This document shows positions 5,808 through 59,193 of a stretch of 64,000 bases of DNA, piece by piece (position 1 is the first letter of the stretch; each line of letters begins with the position of its first letter). Source of the DNA: Ulva prolifera (Eukaryota > Chlorophyta > Ulvophyceae > Ulvales > Ulvaceae); NCBI GenBank assembly GCA_023078555.1, contig CM041199.1, forward strand, positions 930,001 through 994,000. Reading direction: 5' to 3'. The notes below the pieces were generated by a model. The model saw nothing but the letters and a program-made list of their open reading frames with translations. It did no database searches and had not been told where the DNA came from. The position numbers and the translations under genes were made by a program.

Positions 5808-6647
5808 GTGCGCTGCTGCTGCTGCTGCTGCCTCAGGCGCCCCTGCGAGGCTCCGAATCTCTCTGCCGGGGACTGCTGTGTGAGATCTGCTTTGTGGGGC
5901 TCCCGCTTTCTGGGGCTTCCGACTGGTGTCGAGTTGTCTCTTCAGTCCAGGTGTCCACACGCTCCTGAGCGTTTGGCATCGCTCCGGCCTCGACTGCAAA
6001 GCACAACAGCTCGCGTGCACCCACATGCCCCCGAAGGCATAGGCCATGTCGATCCAGACGTACTTCACTTTTCTTTACAGGCCGCCGTAGTTTCACCCCT
6101 GTGCACGTTTGCATCCTGCGCACCTCTGGAACCGCGCGTGTTCGAAATGCCCATGCCGGGCGGTGAATCGGCCGTCGTGGCGCTCCGCTGCATACCCGCT
6201 GCGCTGCGCTGCGCTGCGCTCTGCTGTGCGGATGTATGTGCCTCGTGTGAATGAGTCCCCCTGCCCCTGGACTATTCGCCCGCCACGCCGACCCGGCACG
6301 TCCGAAGCACCCTGATGTGGCTGTGTAGCCGCCTGTGAGGCCCTGGACGGGCGACCTGCAGTGGCATGTAGTTACAATGGACAGAGGCTGGGCATGCTAC
6401 CGGAGCTCGGAACCCATTCCCAGACCTATATACTCGTTCATGGCACTAGGCCGGGCACGAGCTCGCACAACAGCCCTACCGGCACCAGTGGTATGCATGT
6501 GCACACTTATTTATACATAGGTCCACCGGGGCATTGGCAACTGCGATTTTCTGATACCTGGAGTGGTATGCTGTCCAGGGAAGGGGCCCTCTAGTTGCAA
6601 CTACCTACGTGCCCATGCATGCATGCCGAGCAAACGCTCATGCGTGA

Positions 6648-6825
6648 AGTAAAGTAGATTCAGAATCACTGAGCCATATTCTCTTGGGACATTGGCAGCT
6701 CCAGGTAAACGGGACCACATATACCGAAGGGGTAAACCACCTGGAAACCCCCCCTCCAGACGACCGTACGCAACTCACGGGGCCTCCTCCTGTGCTCAGC
6801 GAGGTGGTCACGCACGGCCGTTCTG
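6648..6825 (-). repeat. Dispersed repeat family R1, copy 1
   Basis: The core is ACTGAGCCATATTCTCTTGG, then GGGACATTGGCAGCTCC and a tail GGGGTAAACCACCTGG...CAACTCACGGGGCCTCCTCC. The same order of blocks recurs at 47.87-48.04 kb and, shorter or more diverged, at 35.5 kb. The core alone recurs at 9.28, 32.3, 34.7 and 38.7 kb. Ends and class are not defined. No coding frame is shared between copies. Confidence 0.6.
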
Positions 6826-34527: not shown

Positions 34528-34711
34528 TTCCCTGGGAAGCAGTGCGGCTGTGCCTTCTCACCGGGGCGGGCGCTTGGATTTGAGTCGTGTCACCATTTGC
34601 GGCAATAACCATGTATGCCGATTCCGGTGATGGGCTGCTCCAACTTTGTGGCTTCAAAGCCAAGCTTGTAGGCGAGCTAAGCACACGGCACGTGGTCCCG
34701 TTAATTCGGAG

Positions 34712-34762
34712 TTGCCAATGTCCAATAGGATACGGCTCAGTAAATTCAGATTCACTTTACTT
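34712..34762 (+). repeat. R1 core copy ending at a palindrome
   Basis: GGAGTTGCCAATGTCCAATA then GGATACGGCTCAGTAAATTC and AGATTCACTTTACTT. A 28-bp palindrome follows at once. Confidence 0.6.
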
Positions 34763-34843: not shown

Positions 34844-34890
34844 AGATTTGTGTGCATGGGGGCTGTGCGGTACGGGGGCCGGTGGCTGGC

Positions 34891-35160
34891 TTCCTCGGGG
34901 CGTGGTGTGGCACAGACACTGGGAGACTTTGTGTTGAACAAAAGCCATGGCGAAGAGGTGTTCAGTGCATCTGTGCTGCATTGTGCAGCTCGACTGTTCG
35001 TGTTAAACCTTCCCATAATTTGGTGCTTCCTCGGGGCGTGGTGTGGCACAGACACTGGGAGACTTTGTGTTGAACAAAATCCATGGCGAAGAGGTGTTCA
35101 GTGCATCTGTGCTGCATTGTGCAGCTCGACTGTTCGTGTTACCTTCCCATGATTTGGTGC
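34891..35160. repeat. Tandem duplication, unit about 135 bp
   Basis: 34891-35026 and 35027-35160 are the same sequence (start TTCCTCGGGGCGTGGTGTGG) with a few substitutions and a short indel. The duplication is recent. Open frames run through it on the plus strand, but no gene was recognised. Confidence 0.9.
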
Positions 35161-36333: not shown

Positions 36334-36652
36334 GGTAAGCTGCTGTCCCGCTTTGTGCCTCTCAATATGGCCATGGCTGCACACGCACACCCATATATGA
36401 ATTCATGAGCAGCATGAGTTCCTTGGCATAGCGGCCGCTGCAGGGTGCAATCAGTGAGTGTCAAAGGTGGTGCTAGGGTGGGGTGGTGCATAGATCAGCA
36501 TCAAAGGTGGCACTAGGGTGGGGTAGGGTGGGGTGGTGCAGCGTCATAGACCAACTGACAACCATGCCACCAGACTGGTATGGCAGAGGCCGCAGGCAGG
36601 TAGGCACAGGATCCGGACTGAGCCTCATGCAGGGGGGGGTGGGGGGTGGAGA

Positions 36653-36697
36653 CTGTGGCAATCCAGTGTTATGGCCGCTATACCACTGGATTGCCAC
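36653..36697. mobile_element. 45-bp palindromic element P1, copy 1
   Basis: TGTGGCAATCCAGTG...CACTGGATTGCCAC with a 7-base centre GGCCGCT. GGAGA occurs directly on the right (36698-36702) and one base off on the left (36648-36652), consistent with a 5-bp target duplication and a one-base slip at the left end. Confidence 0.75.
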
Positions 36698-37069
36698 GGA
36701 GAGATTGAGCCTCGTGGTACCATAAACACATTTTCTGGTCAAGTGTGGTTGATGGGTGACTCAAGTTTGAGGCGTCATGCATGCGTGATTGCAACCCAGT
36801 CCCACAGCTGCTGTGCTGTCAGCACCACCAGCTTGCCAATATGACTACCAGTGCAGGCCTGGGGGTCACAGGGCCCACCAGCATCCTCATCGTCAGGCGT
36901 CATAGATCGATCTGATCACATCTTGTGGTGGATGCAGCCACATCAACAGTGGCTGGCCGTGGGGCGCAGCTTCGTAGATCACACCTTGCAATCTGGACTA
37001 AAGCCTGTGATCAATGATCCATGAAGCTGAGCCCCCCTTGATCTCGGATCACAGGCTGTGATCTCCACT

Positions 37070-37173
37070 AGTGTTGGGTCATTGGGCCAGATCACATAGA
37101 ACAATTCCGATTACTCAGGTCTCATTTCCGGATGGGAGCCCCAACAAAGCATGCTGCAAGGCGACCCAACACT
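37070..37173. mobile_element. MITE family M1, copy 2, with 9-bp target duplication
   Basis: Terminal inverted repeats AGTGTTGGGTC and GACCCAACACT bound 104 bp of non-coding DNA. GATCTCCAC occurs at 37060-37068 and again at 37174-37182, a perfect 9-bp duplication with one extra T on the left. Nine-base duplications point to Mutator-type transposition. Confidence 0.8.
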
Positions 37174-37693
37174 GATCTCCACCAAGGGCGGCGCGTAACG
37201 CCTGAAAGTCCACATGATGTATGTACACCTGATCAGTGCTGATGTACTACGATCTGACGTACTATGATGTTTCTGATGTTTCCCACCGCTGTGTGGTGTG
37301 GTTTGATGTGGACGCTGCCTGCTGGGCATCACTGGTCTGGCAAGTATGGCATGGCATGACGCCCGCAGGCTGGCATGCCTGGCATGATGCCAGCATCTTT
37401 GCTCCTGCACTGCACTGCAGTGACTGCAGGCTCAACCAAGCTGAAGCTGCTGTTGCTGATGTAAATGGAGCAGCTGAGCCCCGGCTGTGGACAGGATACG
37501 TAGCACCTGTGAGAACCCACAGCTATGCCCTCAGTGTAGCAGCTGTGTGGCCAGCATACGCAGATTGATCTTGTTCCTTGCTTGCAGTGTATGGCTGTGT
37601 GGTTACGCCACGGCTGTGCACAGGATACGTACATTTGAGCACCTGCAGCACCCACATGCCCCCAGTATAAATGGCTTGTCGACGACAACTAGG

Positions 37694-37757
37694 GGGATTG
37701 CTACGACTGAGCTCACTCGTAGCAATCCCAACAGCTGTTGGGATTGTTACGAGTGAG
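37694..37757. repeat. Triple-arm hairpin
   Basis: One arm sequence occurs three times in alternating orientation: GGGATTGCTACGACTGAG, CTCACTCGTAGCAATCCC, then GGGATTGTTACGAGTGAG after AACAGCTGTT. The centre CAATCCCAACAGCTGTTGGG plus ATTG is a perfect 24-bp palindrome. Confidence 0.9.
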
Positions 37758-38740
37758 GCCGCCACTCAAGTAGCACTCAAGTAGCACTATATCGGCATCC
37801 CATCCTCATCAGGTGACAATTATAACACTCCAGGGTTGGCGCTTTTTGTTCAACAGGGTTCCCCAGTCGCAGTGTATGGCTGTATGGTAAAGATCAGCTG
37901 CCTCCCTTGCAGCACACTACACCCGTATACGTAGGGCCATCTCAACAGTGCCTGAGAGACAGTTGCAACATCATGACTGCGCACGCTGCGTCCTTCAGAA
38001 GACCTCGATGATCATATTCACCTGTGAAGTCACATTGCGGCCACCACGGCGTTGGTTTTACAAGCTTCTGCTTCCAAGCTTCCGCTGCCCCTTTGGCTTG
38101 TCGGGTGGTACCATAGCAAGTGGCCAGGGAGCTTGTGCAGCTCCTTGGATGTGGCCTACGGGTGTTCGCTGTAGGGTGTGGCTATGGGGGTGTTCATTGT
38201 CATCCTGCAAAGGATGCCTGCGGACGCCGACGTGGAACAAATTGACAGTGCTACAAACATGCCGTTGTATCCAAGGCGCTGTGTGCAGATTATAGATCTA
38301 CGGGCTTGACACGCAAGCGCCTGCGGGGCGGGCGGCGGCCGCTGTGGCGTGCATGCGTCTGTGGCGCGCGGAGCCGCAAGAGGCTGTACATCGGCATCGC
38401 GTCAAGTGGCTAGCTTCTGGCTCGGCTGCCAGTGGAGGGCCCCGCCCACGCCGGTGGTGGTGCTCCAGGCGCTGCTGTCGAGCACACGTTGCATGGGTAC
38501 CATGCATGATAGAACACCAAAGCAGGTAGTCCCCCTTCTATGGTGCTCTGCCGTGCGGCCGATCTCTGTGAAGGAGATCACATTGGCCCCGGACGTCGGA
38601 GATGTCAACGTCGCTACGTGTTCATGCAAAGATCGCCTGAAAATGCCACTCTCACGGCCGACGGGCCCCCTCCTGGGCAAGGCTGCTGCTTGCTGCTGAC
38701 TGGAGCAGCTGTGGCAGGCGTATGTGGTCTTGCTCCTCCG

Positions 38741-38788
38741 CAGTTGTCAATGTCCGGTGAGGAAACGGCTCAGTGATATCAGATTTGC
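38741..38788 (+). repeat. R1 core copy interrupted by a P1 element
   Basis: GTCAATGTCCGGTGAGGAAA then CGGCTCAGTGATATCAGATT. The R1 end CTTTACTTCA is split after TTTAC by the palindromic element at 38794. Confidence 0.65.
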
Positions 38789-38793
38789 TTTAC

Positions 38794-38838
38794 TGTGGCA
38801 ATCCAGTGACATGGCCGCTATACCACTGGATTGCCACA
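38794..38838. mobile_element. 45-bp palindromic element P1, copy 2, inserted in R1
   Basis: 45 bp with 19-base arms (TGTGGCAATCCAGTGACAT, two mismatches to the other arm) and centre GGCCGCT. TTTAC is duplicated on both sides (38789-38793 and 38839-38843). Uninterrupted R1 copies contain this stretch once, so they show the empty site. Confidence 0.85.
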
Positions 38839-39024
38839 TTTACTTCATTGTACATGTGGCCATCGTTTTCAGGCAACGGAGAGGCGTAGGTCGCACCACT
38901 CACTTCCAGATGAACACGGGTCGAGACGACTCTCAGCACAGTTGAGAGTGACCTGTGCTAGTGGCATCGTGTCGGGTTTGGACGATTGTCGACAGTGCGT
39001 AGCTAGGTCTGAAGATAGCCATGG

Positions 39025-39069
39025 TGTGGCAATCCAGTGGTATAGCGGCCATACCACTGGATTGCCACA
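39025..39069. mobile_element. 45-bp palindromic element P1, copy 3, perfect arms
   Basis: Perfect 19-base arms (TGTGGCAATCCAGTGGTAT) around AGCGGCC, the centre of copies 1 and 2 in reverse complement. It is flanked by CATGG at 39020-39024 and 39070-39074. Confidence 0.9.
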
Positions 39070-40886
39070 CATGGCCAGAGTGAGTGCGCTCTGCGCATGC
39101 ATACAGAGCATGAACCACTTGTGAACAGCCTACTGCAGGTGCAGAACCACACTCTGGCCATGTCACTCTGGCCATGTCACTCTGGCCATGTTTGCATGTG
39201 CGAGACGTATGCCATCGACAGATGCCCATTCATGGCAAAACAGCAGCACAGGGGCCACAGCATCGTTTCTGCCTGGCAGGGAGGTGAAAGGCGGTATAGG
39301 CTAGCTCGCCTTGCCCTCCGGTTTTCAGGCTTGACATAAATGATCACATAATACGTGCGCCTCATGCTGTGTCCGTGCCGGAATCTCTGCAGACATACAC
39401 ACATATTGTGACACGCGGGCGGACAGTGAGCGAGCGGACAGTGAGCGAGCGTGCCCACCGCATCTGCCTGCATACCTTTCAAGGTCTGATGGCGCTCGTA
39501 AGGCTACTCTGCTGCGTGATCGAAATTGGACGTGAGCAAGATGCAGGGCCCACAAGGCATGTCCAGAATGATGGCTGCTGGGGCACAGCGTGCTGGCAGG
39601 CATTTGGCATGTACATTCAGCAATGGCAGGCCTCGCCTGCAGTCACATTGAAGAGCAGTATTAGGCAGATGCAGCAGGAAGGCATGTTTGTGCACCAAAT
39701 GCAATGGCTTGCAGGTCAGTTGAGCACCGGGCAAGTATGCCGGTGCACTTGGATTCAGGCATCTAGCAGAAGAGAAAAACTGAGCACACAACTTGTGTAA
39801 TCTGTGACAACTGTGGAGGAACCATTCTTTCTGGCGTAAGGCTAGGCCACATGAACGAAGGTCGATTGAACAGATTCGTGCTCATGTGGTTGTCCCAGGT
39901 AGGTGCATCACCAACGGGATCGGCTCAATCTCCCAACACCCAGAGGCATTCACATCCGAGAAATGGAATAACGGTCGCCAAACGCCTTCTTTTGCGCGAG
40001 GGCAAATGCTGTGGTGCAGTGCAGCAGCGCATCAAGTGTAGCGCTCCTGTGCAACGCAGTCGTTGTGATCTACTGTAGGAGCACATGAATCGCTTGCACT
40101 GCAGTCTCTTCTCCTGCCGGCTAGCAGTGGCTACACGACTTCCCAGGGACTCGACGTTGCACACCGTGCAAGCGGAATGTAGGCAGGCAACAACGAATAA
40201 TGCATGGAACATTGTTTAGATAATGTGATACCTCAGGTTAAACAAATCTTGGTGGACACACGATAACTGTGCTTCAATCCACTTGCATAATCCACTTGCA
40301 TAATTTGCATGTACTACATTTGCATGGCCATTTTCTTGGATAAGGGCAGCAATCTGCAACAGCGTTGCCCGGGTTACATTCCGGACAAGCCTTGATGAGA
40401 CAGGAGCCTGACGGTCGACCGACGCCTGCGTTGCACGTACATCAGAGCCGAGCGACTGCGAGCTGCTCGTGTTGGTTCGATACCAAAGACTACCTTCAAA
40501 TGTGTGCCCCTTGGCATCACCACAGATTGAGGAACCGTGGTAAGAAGGCATTACTCACGCCAATCTGCGCGCCACGCCACATCATGTGACGCAGCGCACC
40601 AATGACTGCGAGGGAGCCATTCTCCACGCTGGACTGGCCTTGGCGCGGCTTTGTGGGAGGCCATTCATGAATAACGCATTCGCCAAGATCTCTCGACACA
40701 AGTCACGCTTAAATCCGCATATCTGCCGACTGCTCTGAATGTATGCAGTTGCCCAGTCCCGCTGTGTCCGTGGCTCTCTGTGTTGCCGGAAGCCGGCGTA
40801 AACTCTGCCGCGCAAAGACCCAGTGATAGCTGTTGCTTTACGTCTGCTTTGATCTGCACTCGCTGCTGCCTTGGGCGTGTGTCAGC

Positions 40887-47000: not shown

Positions 47001-48602
47001 CAAGTTGGCAGACTGTGGCTTTGTTCCGGAGGTAGTGAAACACCATGAGTCATATGCAGGGAGACACAAGTCCACAACCTGGTGTGGGTTGGTTTGGAAC
47101 CCACCAATCTCCTATGCAGCTGTCTCCTATGAATAAGGCAGCCTGGAACCATCTCCTGCTGCTTTGACACTCCTTGAAGTTGTCACAGGTAAGTTTTTGC
47201 CATGTTCCTTGCAATGAGTCATGCATGGCCCCTTGCTGGAGCAAGTAAGGCACTTGCACTGCATGAATGAATCCGACATGACTGATCCATGAGCTGTAAG
47301 TGCAAACCTGATCCCTGACTATTCATGCATGGATGCACTGGCATCTACACAGGTACGCTATGAAGTAAAGGTCGGTGGTCATCGCAGCTGTGTTTGCTCT
47401 GGAACACGCCCCTTTCCTTGCGTCCACATACTCTTAGTCTACACTTTTGTAGCAGGTGGTTAGACTCCAATGGTTTGAACGTTGCCACCGGAGGTGGTCG
47501 ACATCACCACCATAGGCTCAGAAGTTCCGAGGCAAAGCTTTGACCTCACCCGCACTGGTGCTGGCACATGCCTCGAGCTGGGTATTGAAAGGCATGCTGT
47601 CCCGGCATCGAAGGCGGATACATGCCCTGTCCACCTACACTTTTCCAGGTCCATGGAGTGCGGCCCGCTACTGTCCGAAGCGCCTGTACAGGTACATGTA
47701 CATGAAGTTCATTGCACTGCTGCCCATCAATTGTGGTAACACTTCACCAGTGTGTTGCAGTTGCAGCTGCCTCAGTTGCACCTGCAAGGTCACCTCGTCC
47801 ATGCCATAGGAACAGGCAGAGCAGTAAGACTGTACCTTGCCAGCCAGATGCCTCATCGAAGCAACACACTAGTGAAGTGAAGTCAATCTGAATTTGCTGA
47901 GCCGTATCCTGAACAGGACAATGAAACTCCAAATTGCTGAGTCTTTCGAAGTCAGAGGGGTTAGCCACCTGAGGAGCCCTTCAGACGACTGTCTGCAACT
48001 CACAGGACCTCCTCCTGTGCTAAGCAAGATCACATTCGATCGGGTTGATTCCCCAAAGCGCAGTTGGATGGTGATTCTGTTTGAATGTTTCGACTGCAAG
48101 TATGACAGGCAACCATACTGCACAGGTAGTGACTTTCCCAAAGAATGTGTAGGCTGAGATGTTACAGTGTGCGTCTTGTAACTGTGTGGACATGATGAAG
48201 GCAATGTTTCTGATGCTGCAGCCCAGACAGTATCACACTGCTACACATCAAAATAGAGGACTTGCATAAGATATGTACGCCACTGTCGCAGTGTCTGCTC
48301 TCTCGTCCATCACATCACATTGCCCTCATTCACCAAATTGCATGCACCAAAAAACTCGCATATGGAGCATGTTTGTGCCTGGAAAAACCTCCCAGCACCG
48401 TGCCAAATCACCACACATCGCAGCCCCCATAAAAAAAGAAAAAACAACAGGACATGCTGAAAACTGCACTGTGTACTGAGCCCCCACATAATCATCATGC
48501 CCATTCCGGAGCTCACATGGCATGTATATACTGTGCATCATCACCGCCAAGTGACGCCACAATCACAGACCGCAGTATGCAGCAGAGATAGTAGTAGCAA
48601 CA
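44078..48602. other. 4.5-kb spacer without a confident gene
   Basis: Contains a run of 11 C at 44129-44139. A GC-rich half (44.1-45.5 kb) holds open frames but no domain; a possible exon at 44924-44992 reads VHLVGGFKCAEDVFLPNAAC. An AT-richer half (46.4-48.5 kb) has scattered short frames such as 46846-47136 and 47482-47809, none joined or recognised, and the longest R1 copy. Confidence 0.4.
47872..48045 (-). repeat. Dispersed repeat family R1, longest copy
   Basis: AATTTGCTGAGCCGTATCCT then GACAATGAAACTCC, GGGGTTAGCCACCTGAGGAG and CAACTCACAGGACCTCCTCC, TGTGCTAAGCAAGATCACAT. It matches the 6.65-kb copy block by block. Confidence 0.6.
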
Positions 48603-51060
<2,458 letters not shown>

Positions 51061-56736: not shown

Positions 56737-59193
56737 CTACGCAGTGGACTCCACCTTGGGAGGGTTCCCTAGCTGAATATCGTCCACGTTAGCTTCCCGT
56801 TGCTTAGCACCCCGCTGCGACTTGGACTCCTGAGCGAACTTCATGGCAGCGTCGGCGAGGCCAGCAGCCCGCTCCTCCTCAGAAAACTCTCCGAGGTAGT
56901 AGTCCTCTTCCACCACACCCTCACGAGGGCCACACAGCATGCCTCCCCACATCGGAAAGTAGATTGGGACAACAAGCAGAGTCATAGCCATGACCATGAT
57001 GCCCATGTAGACAAGGCCAGTGTATGTCTCGTATGATGAGTCCTTGAAGAAGAGGGACTGGGTGATGACAGAGCCAGCATTGCCACCAGCACCGATGAAG
57101 CCTGAGACAACACCCAGAGCCCGCTTCGAGACGAAAGGCACAACACCGTATGAAGCACCCTCTGAAGCTTGCACGAAGAGGGAGAAGATGATCATAATGC
57201 AGATGGTAGCGGGCAGGGAGTTCTTGGCCAGGCCCATGAAGATGCAGAGGGCACCCTCGAAGGTCTGCATGGACCACAGCGCCCAGAGGCGGCCCCGCAT
57301 CCCGAAGCGCTTGCCAGCAAGATCTGAGCCCAGGCCTCCAATGGAGCGAGCGAACAAATTCATGAGACCGAACAGAGAGCCAAGGACACCAGCGATAGTG
57401 AGGGAGACGCCGAACTGATCGAAGAGGTAGGTGACAATGATGTTGTTCATGGTAAGCTCTACACCGAAGCAGAAACCATAGGTCACTGTCAAGCACCACA
57501 TCCTGCATGAGAACACAAAACATGAAGCTGAGAACAACAGGATGTGGTTCATAGCCCCAGTGCATGACTGGAGAGCCACATATAATGGCCAGCTCAACAA
57601 GCCAATGCTCAAAATTAGACAACAAAATGTACATGGGGCGATTTCCAAATTCATAGCAGCATGTCACATGCGAGCATAAAATACATGGAAGAAGGAATCG
57701 AAGCCAGGAGCAGGGCGCACCGGTAGTTGCTGATGGCTGTGATGAACACGCGGAGTGGGCTGTCCTTGCTCATGCCACCAGACTTCTTGAGCACAGCATA
57801 GTTGCCATCAGGCAGATCCAGGGAGAAGAAGAGGATGCCCATGCCGCCGATGATGTGCATGAAAGCAGGCACGAACATGGACCAGCGCCAGGCGAGGAAG
57901 GGCTGCGTGTGTTGAGAGATACCGCGGAAGACGAGAGGCATGAGCAGCTGTGTCACTCCTCCTCCCAGGTTGCCCCAGCCTCCTGTGGTTGCATTGGCAA
58001 TACCTGCACACAGCACCAGCATGGTCTACCGACTCGAGCAAGACAGGTCTTATTTTTGTTGTGCGGACTGACAAAGCATAAGCCCGATACAGGGCTGGCG
58101 CAGAAGCTTCGAACATATGTGGTGAAGTGGACATAGTCGCACCGACGATCTTCACGTTGAACATGCTTGCGGTCCAGAACTGGCAGGAAACGAAAGTAGA
58201 GAGCCCGAATCCGATACCGAAGCGGAGCAGAGTGAAGTCGAGAGCCTTGTTTGCGAGGGCCATGCCGAAGACGCAAGGCGCGGTCATCATAAGCACGGAG
58301 GACATGCCCAGTCGAGGTCCAATCCAGTCGCAAACAGCCCCCATCGCTACACGGGCGGCGATGGTGCCGGATACAGCGGCAATTCCTGCAGCAAGGAAGG
58401 ATACTCGGCACGGGCCCGGCTCAATTGCACTGGGAGGCCACCTTCTTTAACAAAGCAAGAGAGCGCCGAGCAACATAGCACGAAAGACGTATTAATGCTA
58501 GAAAGTTTTCTGATGTGGAATGATGTCAATCAGTTTTACTAACAGAGAATTCCAGTTGCACGCTTTCTTTGTGGTAGGTGGACCAGGCGATACTGAGAGG
58601 CCGCCAGGGCACAGCAATGCAACATTAAATAAACCGCAAACACAATAGTAATACAATACACTGCTCTGCATGGTCTAGATCTCATGCCGCTGCACCGGCA
58701 ACTACGCGAGCGGGCGACATGTATGACGCGTAGACACTCTGGTCCGTCACAGGGACCAACGTACTGTAGCCAAGCAAAAGCATGCAAGAATGTCCTGCTC
58801 TTGTGAAGAATTGCCTAACAATATATAGTTCATATTGGAACATCTGATGTGCGCAGGTTCCGTAGTCGGTGAATTTGAAAACAGTCTGCATGGCCGCGTG
58901 GGACGGCGCGCGAGCACATGAAGAGCAGACAATTGGCATTATTTCCGAAACGCCGCAGCCGAGGCATAATACATACCTGCATTACCGAGATCGGCTTTGC
59001 TGAGGCCAAGATCCTCGCGCACGACGGGAATCATCGCTGCTGGGGCGAAAGTAGACACGAAGGACGTGAAGAATCCGAACCAGCACAGGTGGAACGCGCG
59101 CATGTGTGGCAGCGCAAACGATAACAGGTTGATCTTCAGAGCCTTATGCTCCGAATCAACAGGCAGCGCGAACTGCGGCTCGGTGGTCGTCAT
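56737..59193 (-). CDS. NRT2: High-affinity nitrate transporter, NRT2/NNP family, copy 2 (complete)
   Basis: Same role and architecture as copy 1. Exons 58977-59193, 58143-58385, 57721-58003 and 56737-57502 encode 502 residues, with introns at identical positions and phases (591, 139 and 218 nt). Exon 2 appears identical to that of copy 1 and exon 3 shows about two silent changes. Exon 1 differs at roughly one base in eight and its N-terminus reads MTTTEPQ instead of MASNEQQQ. Exon 4 differs by about 4-5 percent with conservative changes (KNSLPATICIMIIF against KGSLPATIVIMVVF), and the tail end diverges (DDIQLGNPPKVESTA). Intron 2 can be aligned throughout; introns 1 and 3 cannot. All signature motifs are intact, so both copies look functional. 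Confidence 0.95.

Follow-up and report, generated by a model that had tools for sequence, protein, structure and literature searches.

The window, a stretch of 64,000 nucleotides from Ulva prolifera, contains three solo 45-bp palindromes (P45) that we read, with a probability of roughly 0.55, as copies of a non-autonomous, palindromic family of foldback/MITE-type DNA transposons in which most P45 copies are end products. That the family is a non-autonomous one of class II is very probable. It comes in three size classes (i.e., P45, a 100-bp palindrome referred to as P100, and body-bearing elements), which have TGTNR...YNACA ends and 5-bp target site duplications (TSDs). What is unusual in this family is its size, the fact that its terminal repeats are themselves palindromes, and the route along which it would shrink to nearly nothing.

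Short palindromes in the window and across the genome

Screening the window for the P45 arm (up to three mismatches) returned six matches, against 0.03 expected from shuffling. All three 45-bp copies described in the original prediction exist (Table 1), with copy 1 starting one base to the right of the position 36653 given there. The 19-base arms that they were said to share are perfect in copy 3 only, those of copy 1 carrying one mismatch each and those of copy 2 carrying two and none. The centre does occur either way round, reading GGCCGC in the first two copies and GCGGCC in the third, and the description as almost nothing but inverted repeat is right for the 45-bp palindrome. Distinct 5-bp repeats flank the copies as proposed, and are exact for copies 2 and 3; in the register of the family, the repeat of copy 1 agrees in four of five letters, and the GGAGA earlier assigned to it needs the element to be shifted by one base. 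Since no body-end sequence (up to two mismatches) lies within ca. 700 bp of the window copies, all three were taken as solos.

Table 1. Coordinates of the three P45 copies, their target duplications and the adjoining host repeat in the window.
Feature	Position	Strand	Basis
P45 copy 1 (solo palindrome, 45 bp, centre ATGGCCGCTAT)	36654..36698	+	arm and palindrome search, TSD scoring
Copy 1, left target duplication GAGAC (4/5 identical to right)	36649..36653		TSD scoring
Copy 1, right target duplication GAGAG	36699..36703		TSD scoring
P45 copy 2 (solo)	38794..38838	+	arm and palindrome search, TSD scoring
Copy 2, left target duplication TTTAC	38789..38793		TSD scoring
Copy 2, right target duplication TTTAC	38839..38843		TSD scoring
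Part of dispersed host repeat, with its edge at the copy 2 insertion site	38717..38793	+	approximate borders, query positions 24-100
P45 copy 3 (solo; centre reversed; perfect 19-nt arms)	39025..39069	-	arm and palindrome search, TSD scoring
Copy 3, left target duplication CATGG	39020..39024		TSD scoring
Copy 3, right target duplication CATGG	39070..39074		TSD scoring

The original prediction had also proposed a genome-wide search for further copies, and these were abundant in the home genome (88.9 Mb in 44 contigs): P45 with two exact 14-nt arms was found at 119 places, versus none for a reversed-pattern control. When two 10-nt inner arms with up to three mismatches were sought instead, 651 places were recovered (control, 1), a count in which P100 halves can match and from which up to ca. 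186 (2 x 93) may need to be set aside, leaving an estimated P45 total of roughly 465. Single arms with up to three mismatches numbered 723 on one strand and 725 on the other (controls, 4 and 5), and one 15-nt consensus centre was common to 24 of the 50 exact P45 places listed out of the 119. Viral contigs yielded no exact matches to either the P45 pattern or the P100 core.

Target duplications were scored for 39 short copies of 36-59 bp from the loci read, a non-random set of best search matches situated mostly on contigs C1 and C2. Seven of these copies (two in L005 and one each in L068, L069, L070, L076 and L080) belong to larger elements, as their ends or internal portions, and therefore cannot show a two-sided repeat, while L019 and L020 look like one site that was copied. 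An exact 5-bp flanking repeat was present in 20 of the 39 copies and absent from the other 19, and at least four of the five letters agreed in 26. In 2000 rounds in which left flanks were paired anew with right ones, exact 5-bp matches averaged 0.14 and never exceeded 3, and exact repeats of 4 bp or of 6-10 bp in the same register occurred in none of the 39 copies at any of these lengths. The repeats differ from copy to copy; the 20 exact ones are 41% A+T (compared to 42% for the window), revealing no AT preference, and position counts made no strong motif apparent. With 20 of 39 exact against 0.14 expected, there is strong support for the proposed origin as a mobile element that duplicates 5 bp of its target.

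Copy 2 had been said to split a repeat whose unbroken site survives elsewhere. Its joined flanks match 39 other scored places in the genome (70 candidates, of which 40 were scored), and most of the resulting alignments (28 of 39) stop 0-2 bp beyond the junction, which places the insertion at the edge of a host repeat. The remaining 11 extend 9-20 bp past the uninterrupted site and, as alignments across the junction, provide modest empty-site evidence; the claim is weak without being wrong. Alignments inside the window gave the same picture as the genome. The dispersed repeat itself lies at 38717-38793, 34692-34762, 6645-6721 and 47873-47928 of the window and in at least 39 further genome places, with 28 alignments sharing the edge, and may be the terminal part of an element resembling a SINE or LINE.

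Among the fetched loci, 42 joined-flank queries revealed no empty site for the window copies. L005 gave one weak match, and the joined flanks of L066 matched 12 places, the four listed being 79-87% identical with 3 gaps. L066 (G000:C4:1158700-1158900) is a solo P100 without a TSD, and from these alignments it seems to sit in a dispersed repeat.

The window holds several other features. A second short palindrome cluster at 37685-37757 comprises 46 bp at 96% complementarity and an overlapping 54 bp at 81%; its ends can be read as TGTTGGGATTG, and it possibly represents another palindromic family. On the minus strand, the open stretches 48603-49391 and 56737-57663 encode 92% identical, membrane-transporter-like segments that constitute a nearby gene duplication, and that we take to be NRT2-like. 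A Pfam search with five window frames returned one MFS match, below cut-off, in one of these stretches, and one window frame compared to the PDB gave no match. Finally, 34889-35141 contains a duplication of 117 bp (99% identical, with a spacing of 136).

Longer relatives and the origin of P45

P100 is a 100-bp palindrome with the ends of P45 (the length is exactly 100 bp in 34 of 43 long palindromes), and its core occurs at 93 places in the genome at up to two mismatches (control, 0). Among 21 solo long palindromes called by script, five of which have adjacent body remnants when inspected by eye, the TSD was exact in 9 and matched in at least four of five letters in 13. The left body end was found at 63 places in the genome (control, 0), and the body, of up to ca. 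190 bp, lies beside or between palindromes. In its fullest form the element consists of a palindrome, a body of roughly 190 bp (194-bp inner part) and another palindrome, i.e., 394 bp in total. Lengths of body-bearing elements range from 124 to 412 bp, with 688 bp for a tandem (L065; palindrome-body-palindrome-body-palindrome) flanked by the TSD AGCTC. Of 28 body-bearing elements tested, 19 displayed an exact 5-bp TSD at a TG or CA terminus and 9 did not; this test covered the loci other than L114 (which has no anchor), L072, L074, L076, L077, L110, L112, L113, L115-L117 and L118-L144. The stretch of L079 starts inside the body, its left side being out of view. The 412-bp member (L111, G000:C3:7019420-7019960, positions 70-481) has an inverted duplication as its body, located between two P45-length palindromes, and carries the TSD CTTTG.

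Subfamilies differ in their outer 8-10 nt, usually with both ends alike (TGTGGCAATCC, TGTGATAGTCC, TGTGACAGTCC, TGTGGCAGTCC and TGTTGTAACC), and the element ends seen were TGTGG, TGTGA and TGTTG. Ends of mixed subfamily occur in L066, L102 and L109, the last of which is a solo P100 (TSD GTGTC) whose two arms come from different subfamilies. Other elements have mostly lost one end while keeping its outermost letters and the TSD (TGTG in L096, TGTGGCA in L092, TGTGACAG in L095 and TGTGGCAGTCC in L100), as would be expected of internal deletions during gap repair.

The P45 consensus equals P100 positions 1-37 joined to 93-100, and thus P100 lacking the 55 bp that separate two CACTGGA direct repeats. 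Subfamily TGTGATAGTCC has both P100 and P45 versions of its own, and in L068, L069 and L072 the two ends differ, one being a P45-length palindrome and the opposite one P100 or what remains of it. There is good reason to regard P45 as derived from P100, and the separate P100/P45 pair in a second subfamily together with the mixed-length ends favors repeated collapse of individual palindromes. Scoring by script of 27 body-adjacent stretches yielded 16 of P45 length, 4 that were long or held the P100 core, and 7 others (two of which, L129 and L141, are P45-length by eye), a P45 share that is too high for the whole because these 27 are what is left of the 63 body ends after the favorites of a P100-holding query; among the latter, P45-length and P100 palindromes appeared by eye in similar numbers. 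The P45:P100 ratio in solos versus body-bearing elements, considered as an indicator of P45 mobility, is affected by counting rules and samples that differ between the groups. The mobile origin of the 45-mer holds, whereas its proposed role as the mobile unit has to be revised: it is most likely a 55-bp deletion form of P100, and since the same palindromes end longer elements that certainly moved, the 45-mer need not be what is recognized and moved.

Movement as DNA and the search for a mover

Two of the three 394-bp copies, L061 (contig C8, TSD TTAAT) and L063 (contig C4, TSD AATGC), are letter-for-letter identical (0 differences), and the family or its helper has therefore recently been active. 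In both, position 38 is a C in the left palindrome and a T in the right one. Because reverse transcription copies both LTRs from one template, this shared left/right difference argues for recent movement of the 394-bp form as DNA, and not by LTR-type reverse transcription. The third copy (L062; TSD CAGTT) differs from the other two at 4 of 394 positions. Its palindromes differ from each other at two positions while each is still perfect, which suggests that repair templated by a hairpin or cruciform makes one arm agree with the other.

The original prediction had further envisaged a larger autonomous element with the same ends, which was not found by limited searches with three end or body-end patterns. 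The ends TGTGGCAATCCAGTGNNBV occurred at 15 places, read as palindromes, degenerate palindromes or lone arms, and TGTGGCAATCC followed by a non-A base (TGTGGCAATCCB) occurred at 55 places versus 20 in the control, with no autonomous element among them. At the 63 body ends, covered mostly on the palindrome side and for some on the inner side to ca. 400-700 bp, no longer coding interior appeared in the stretch read. Two candidates were discarded: the convergent pair C4:5580749/5591062 (ca. 10 kb apart) is without a TSD, and C7:1540354/1551226 proved to be one P45 variant in duplicated DNA.

Frames with an rve/integrase domain were plentiful, with at least 150 scored of 626 candidates, and none could be tied to element ends. 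Six integrase-bearing stretches were fetched (L085-L090), of which L086 and L087 contain LTR pairs, L088 an LTR/primer junction, and the other three no LTR pair. L086 is a Copia element with its integrase before RVT_2, ends TGTGGGAAG...ATATTGCCACA and TSD GTGGA. It is inserted beside parts of its own kind (G000:C3:2370000-2376400), has LTRs identical over 421 aligned bp, and carries the primer site GGTTATGGGCCC, which resembles the anticodon half of the initiator tRNA, a kind of primer also used by Drosophila copia. A pattern for such a half-tRNA primer site following CACA occurs at 4 genome places. A Copia-type integrase was set aside as the mover and kept as a hint, since only L086 of L086-L088 shares 9 terminal nt with P45. 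Positions 6509-6729 of L087 consist of ca. 60-bp tandem units, each with a palindrome-like stretch. In the body, a T-arm/B-box-like stretch (GGTTCGATCCC) is visible. A tRNA/SINE origin of the body was rejected after five stretches compared with Rfam gave no tRNA; the 23 weak matches obtained were microRNA hairpins and one sRNA, all below gathering scores.

Alternative readings and known families

The LTRs bear on an alternative in which the family is a miniature LTR retrotransposon of the TRIM/SMART type moved by Copia, with the palindrome as a tiny LTR, the 394-bp form as the complete element, and P45 and P100 as solo LTRs. The TG...CA ends, the 5-bp TSD and the 100-bp terminal repeats around a 194-bp inner part would suit such an element, as would the tandem L065, the abundance of LTR-type integrase frames (many exceeding 1000 aa), and the fact that L086 has ATTGCCACA at its end, 9 nt shared with the end of the family's elements. 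TRIMs are recognized by two features, a primer binding site that adjoins the left repeat and a purine tract preceding the right one. In L061-L065, judged against LTRs of the same genome, neither a purine tract before the right palindrome nor a primer site of the two kinds looked for was present. Moreover, GGTTATGGGCCC adjoins the LTR in L086 and L087, whereas the body starts with AAAAGCTGGGTCC or AAAAGTTGGGTTC at its two sides, and the LTR ends of L087 and L088 are without the 9 nt. Terminal repeats should also be identical at insertion, yet L061 and L063, themselves identical, keep the difference at position 38 that LTR synthesis would erase. Taken together, a TRIM/SMART identity appears quite improbable.

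Under the preferred DNA-transposon reading, we infer from the termini and the TSD that a DDE transposase/integrase-type enzyme would join the TG...CA ends to the target with a 5-bp stagger, the mobile unit being the 100-400-bp form. A palindrome serves simultaneously as a direct and as an inverted repeat, so that the two terminal palindromes can act like LTRs, and could recombine or slip to leave a solo palindrome with its target duplication. The hybrid solo L109 fits recombination between palindromes, as does L065, the structure of which is expected if palindromes recombine as direct repeats. Solo P100s, either moved as such or left behind, would subsequently lose the 55 bp between the CACTGGA repeats by slippage or repair, giving P45. 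Most solo P45 copies would accordingly be scars and not P45 jumps, for which we put the odds slightly above even. It is conceivable, if somewhat doubtful, that P45 is itself mobile, i.e., a 45-bp MITE with its two ends in a single palindrome, which a transposase acting in trans excises or copies and inserts. The many solos with different 5-bp TSDs point that way, as do the excess of P45 over P100 and body ends (651 minus up to ca. 186 versus 93 and 63) and the consensus centre shared by nearly half of the exact places listed (24/50). Nevertheless, the P45 consensus carries no sequence beyond P100, P45-length ends occur on body-bearing elements too, and a length of 45 bp falls well short of the persistence length of double-stranded DNA, making it hard to pair the ends of one copy. 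Movement of P45 would call for pairing of ends that belong to different copies, for an intermediate in hairpin or single-stranded form, or for a transposase that can work on a pair of almost bare ends. As for the 45-mers being immobile structural motifs (regulatory palindromes or gene-conversion tracts) that resemble insertions, near-perfect palindromes can arise and be homogenized without transposition, but direct repeats of sharply 5 bp, with a sequence that varies between copies, and the identical 394-bp relatives at different sites make this exceedingly improbable.

Among known systems, the family resembles MITEs in being short, non-coding and dispersed, with terminal inverted repeats (arms of 14-19 nt), a fixed TSD, hundreds of copies, and deletion forms of longer elements. 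P45 differs in that it is entirely one palindrome, and its 45 bp fall below the usual MITE size of about 100-600 bp. Foldback elements (Drosophila FB, Galileo, Tm1) are likewise built largely from inverted repeats, around a middle part that varies or is absent; P45 and P100 are largely inverted repeats, and L111 has inverted body halves. FB arms are tandem subrepeats of hundreds of bp, whereas the arms of the present family measure about 19-50 bp and each terminal repeat is itself a full palindrome. In L061, the one element tested, Tandem Repeats Finder (score 30) reported no tandem subrepeats. Yeast mitochondrial GC clusters and other organellar palindromic repeats are short dispersed hairpins thought to be mobile, and differ from the P45 family in being organellar and without a constant 5-bp TSD.

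Ginger2/TDD elements have TGTNR termini (PMC2836005), as does the present family, whose 5-bp TSD fits TDD-4/-5: according to the two reports, these members of Ginger2 combine TGTNR ends with the 5-bp TSD, features common to LTR-retrotransposon integrases (PMC2836005, PMC10045372). Other Ginger2 elements are described there as having 4-bp TSDs, AT-rich RTATAY targets and TIRs of about 50-180 bp (PMC2836005, PMC10045372), in contrast to the TSDs found here, with an A+T content like that of the window; no transposase was found in the present family, and among the plentiful rve domains of the genome none could be linked to its ends as the H2C2-DDE transposase expected of a Ginger2/TDD element. TRIM/SMART elements are small, with terminal repeats and a 5-bp TSD, and reported from Chlamydomonas and Volvox (PMC4717578), but the terminal repeats of the present family are palindromic and differ left from right in the same way in two insertions. 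Within the accessible parts of the literature on very short, palindromic or green-alga MITEs and on Ginger-type, algal and foldback elements, no description of this family was found.

The family offers a testable route by which a transposon family may shrink to almost only its two ends. It also poses the question of a lower bound, i.e., how short a TSD-flanked element can be and still be recognized and moved. If P45 does move, hundreds of insertions with 5-bp duplications would have been made by a 45-bp palindrome too short to accommodate a conventional one-copy synaptic complex.
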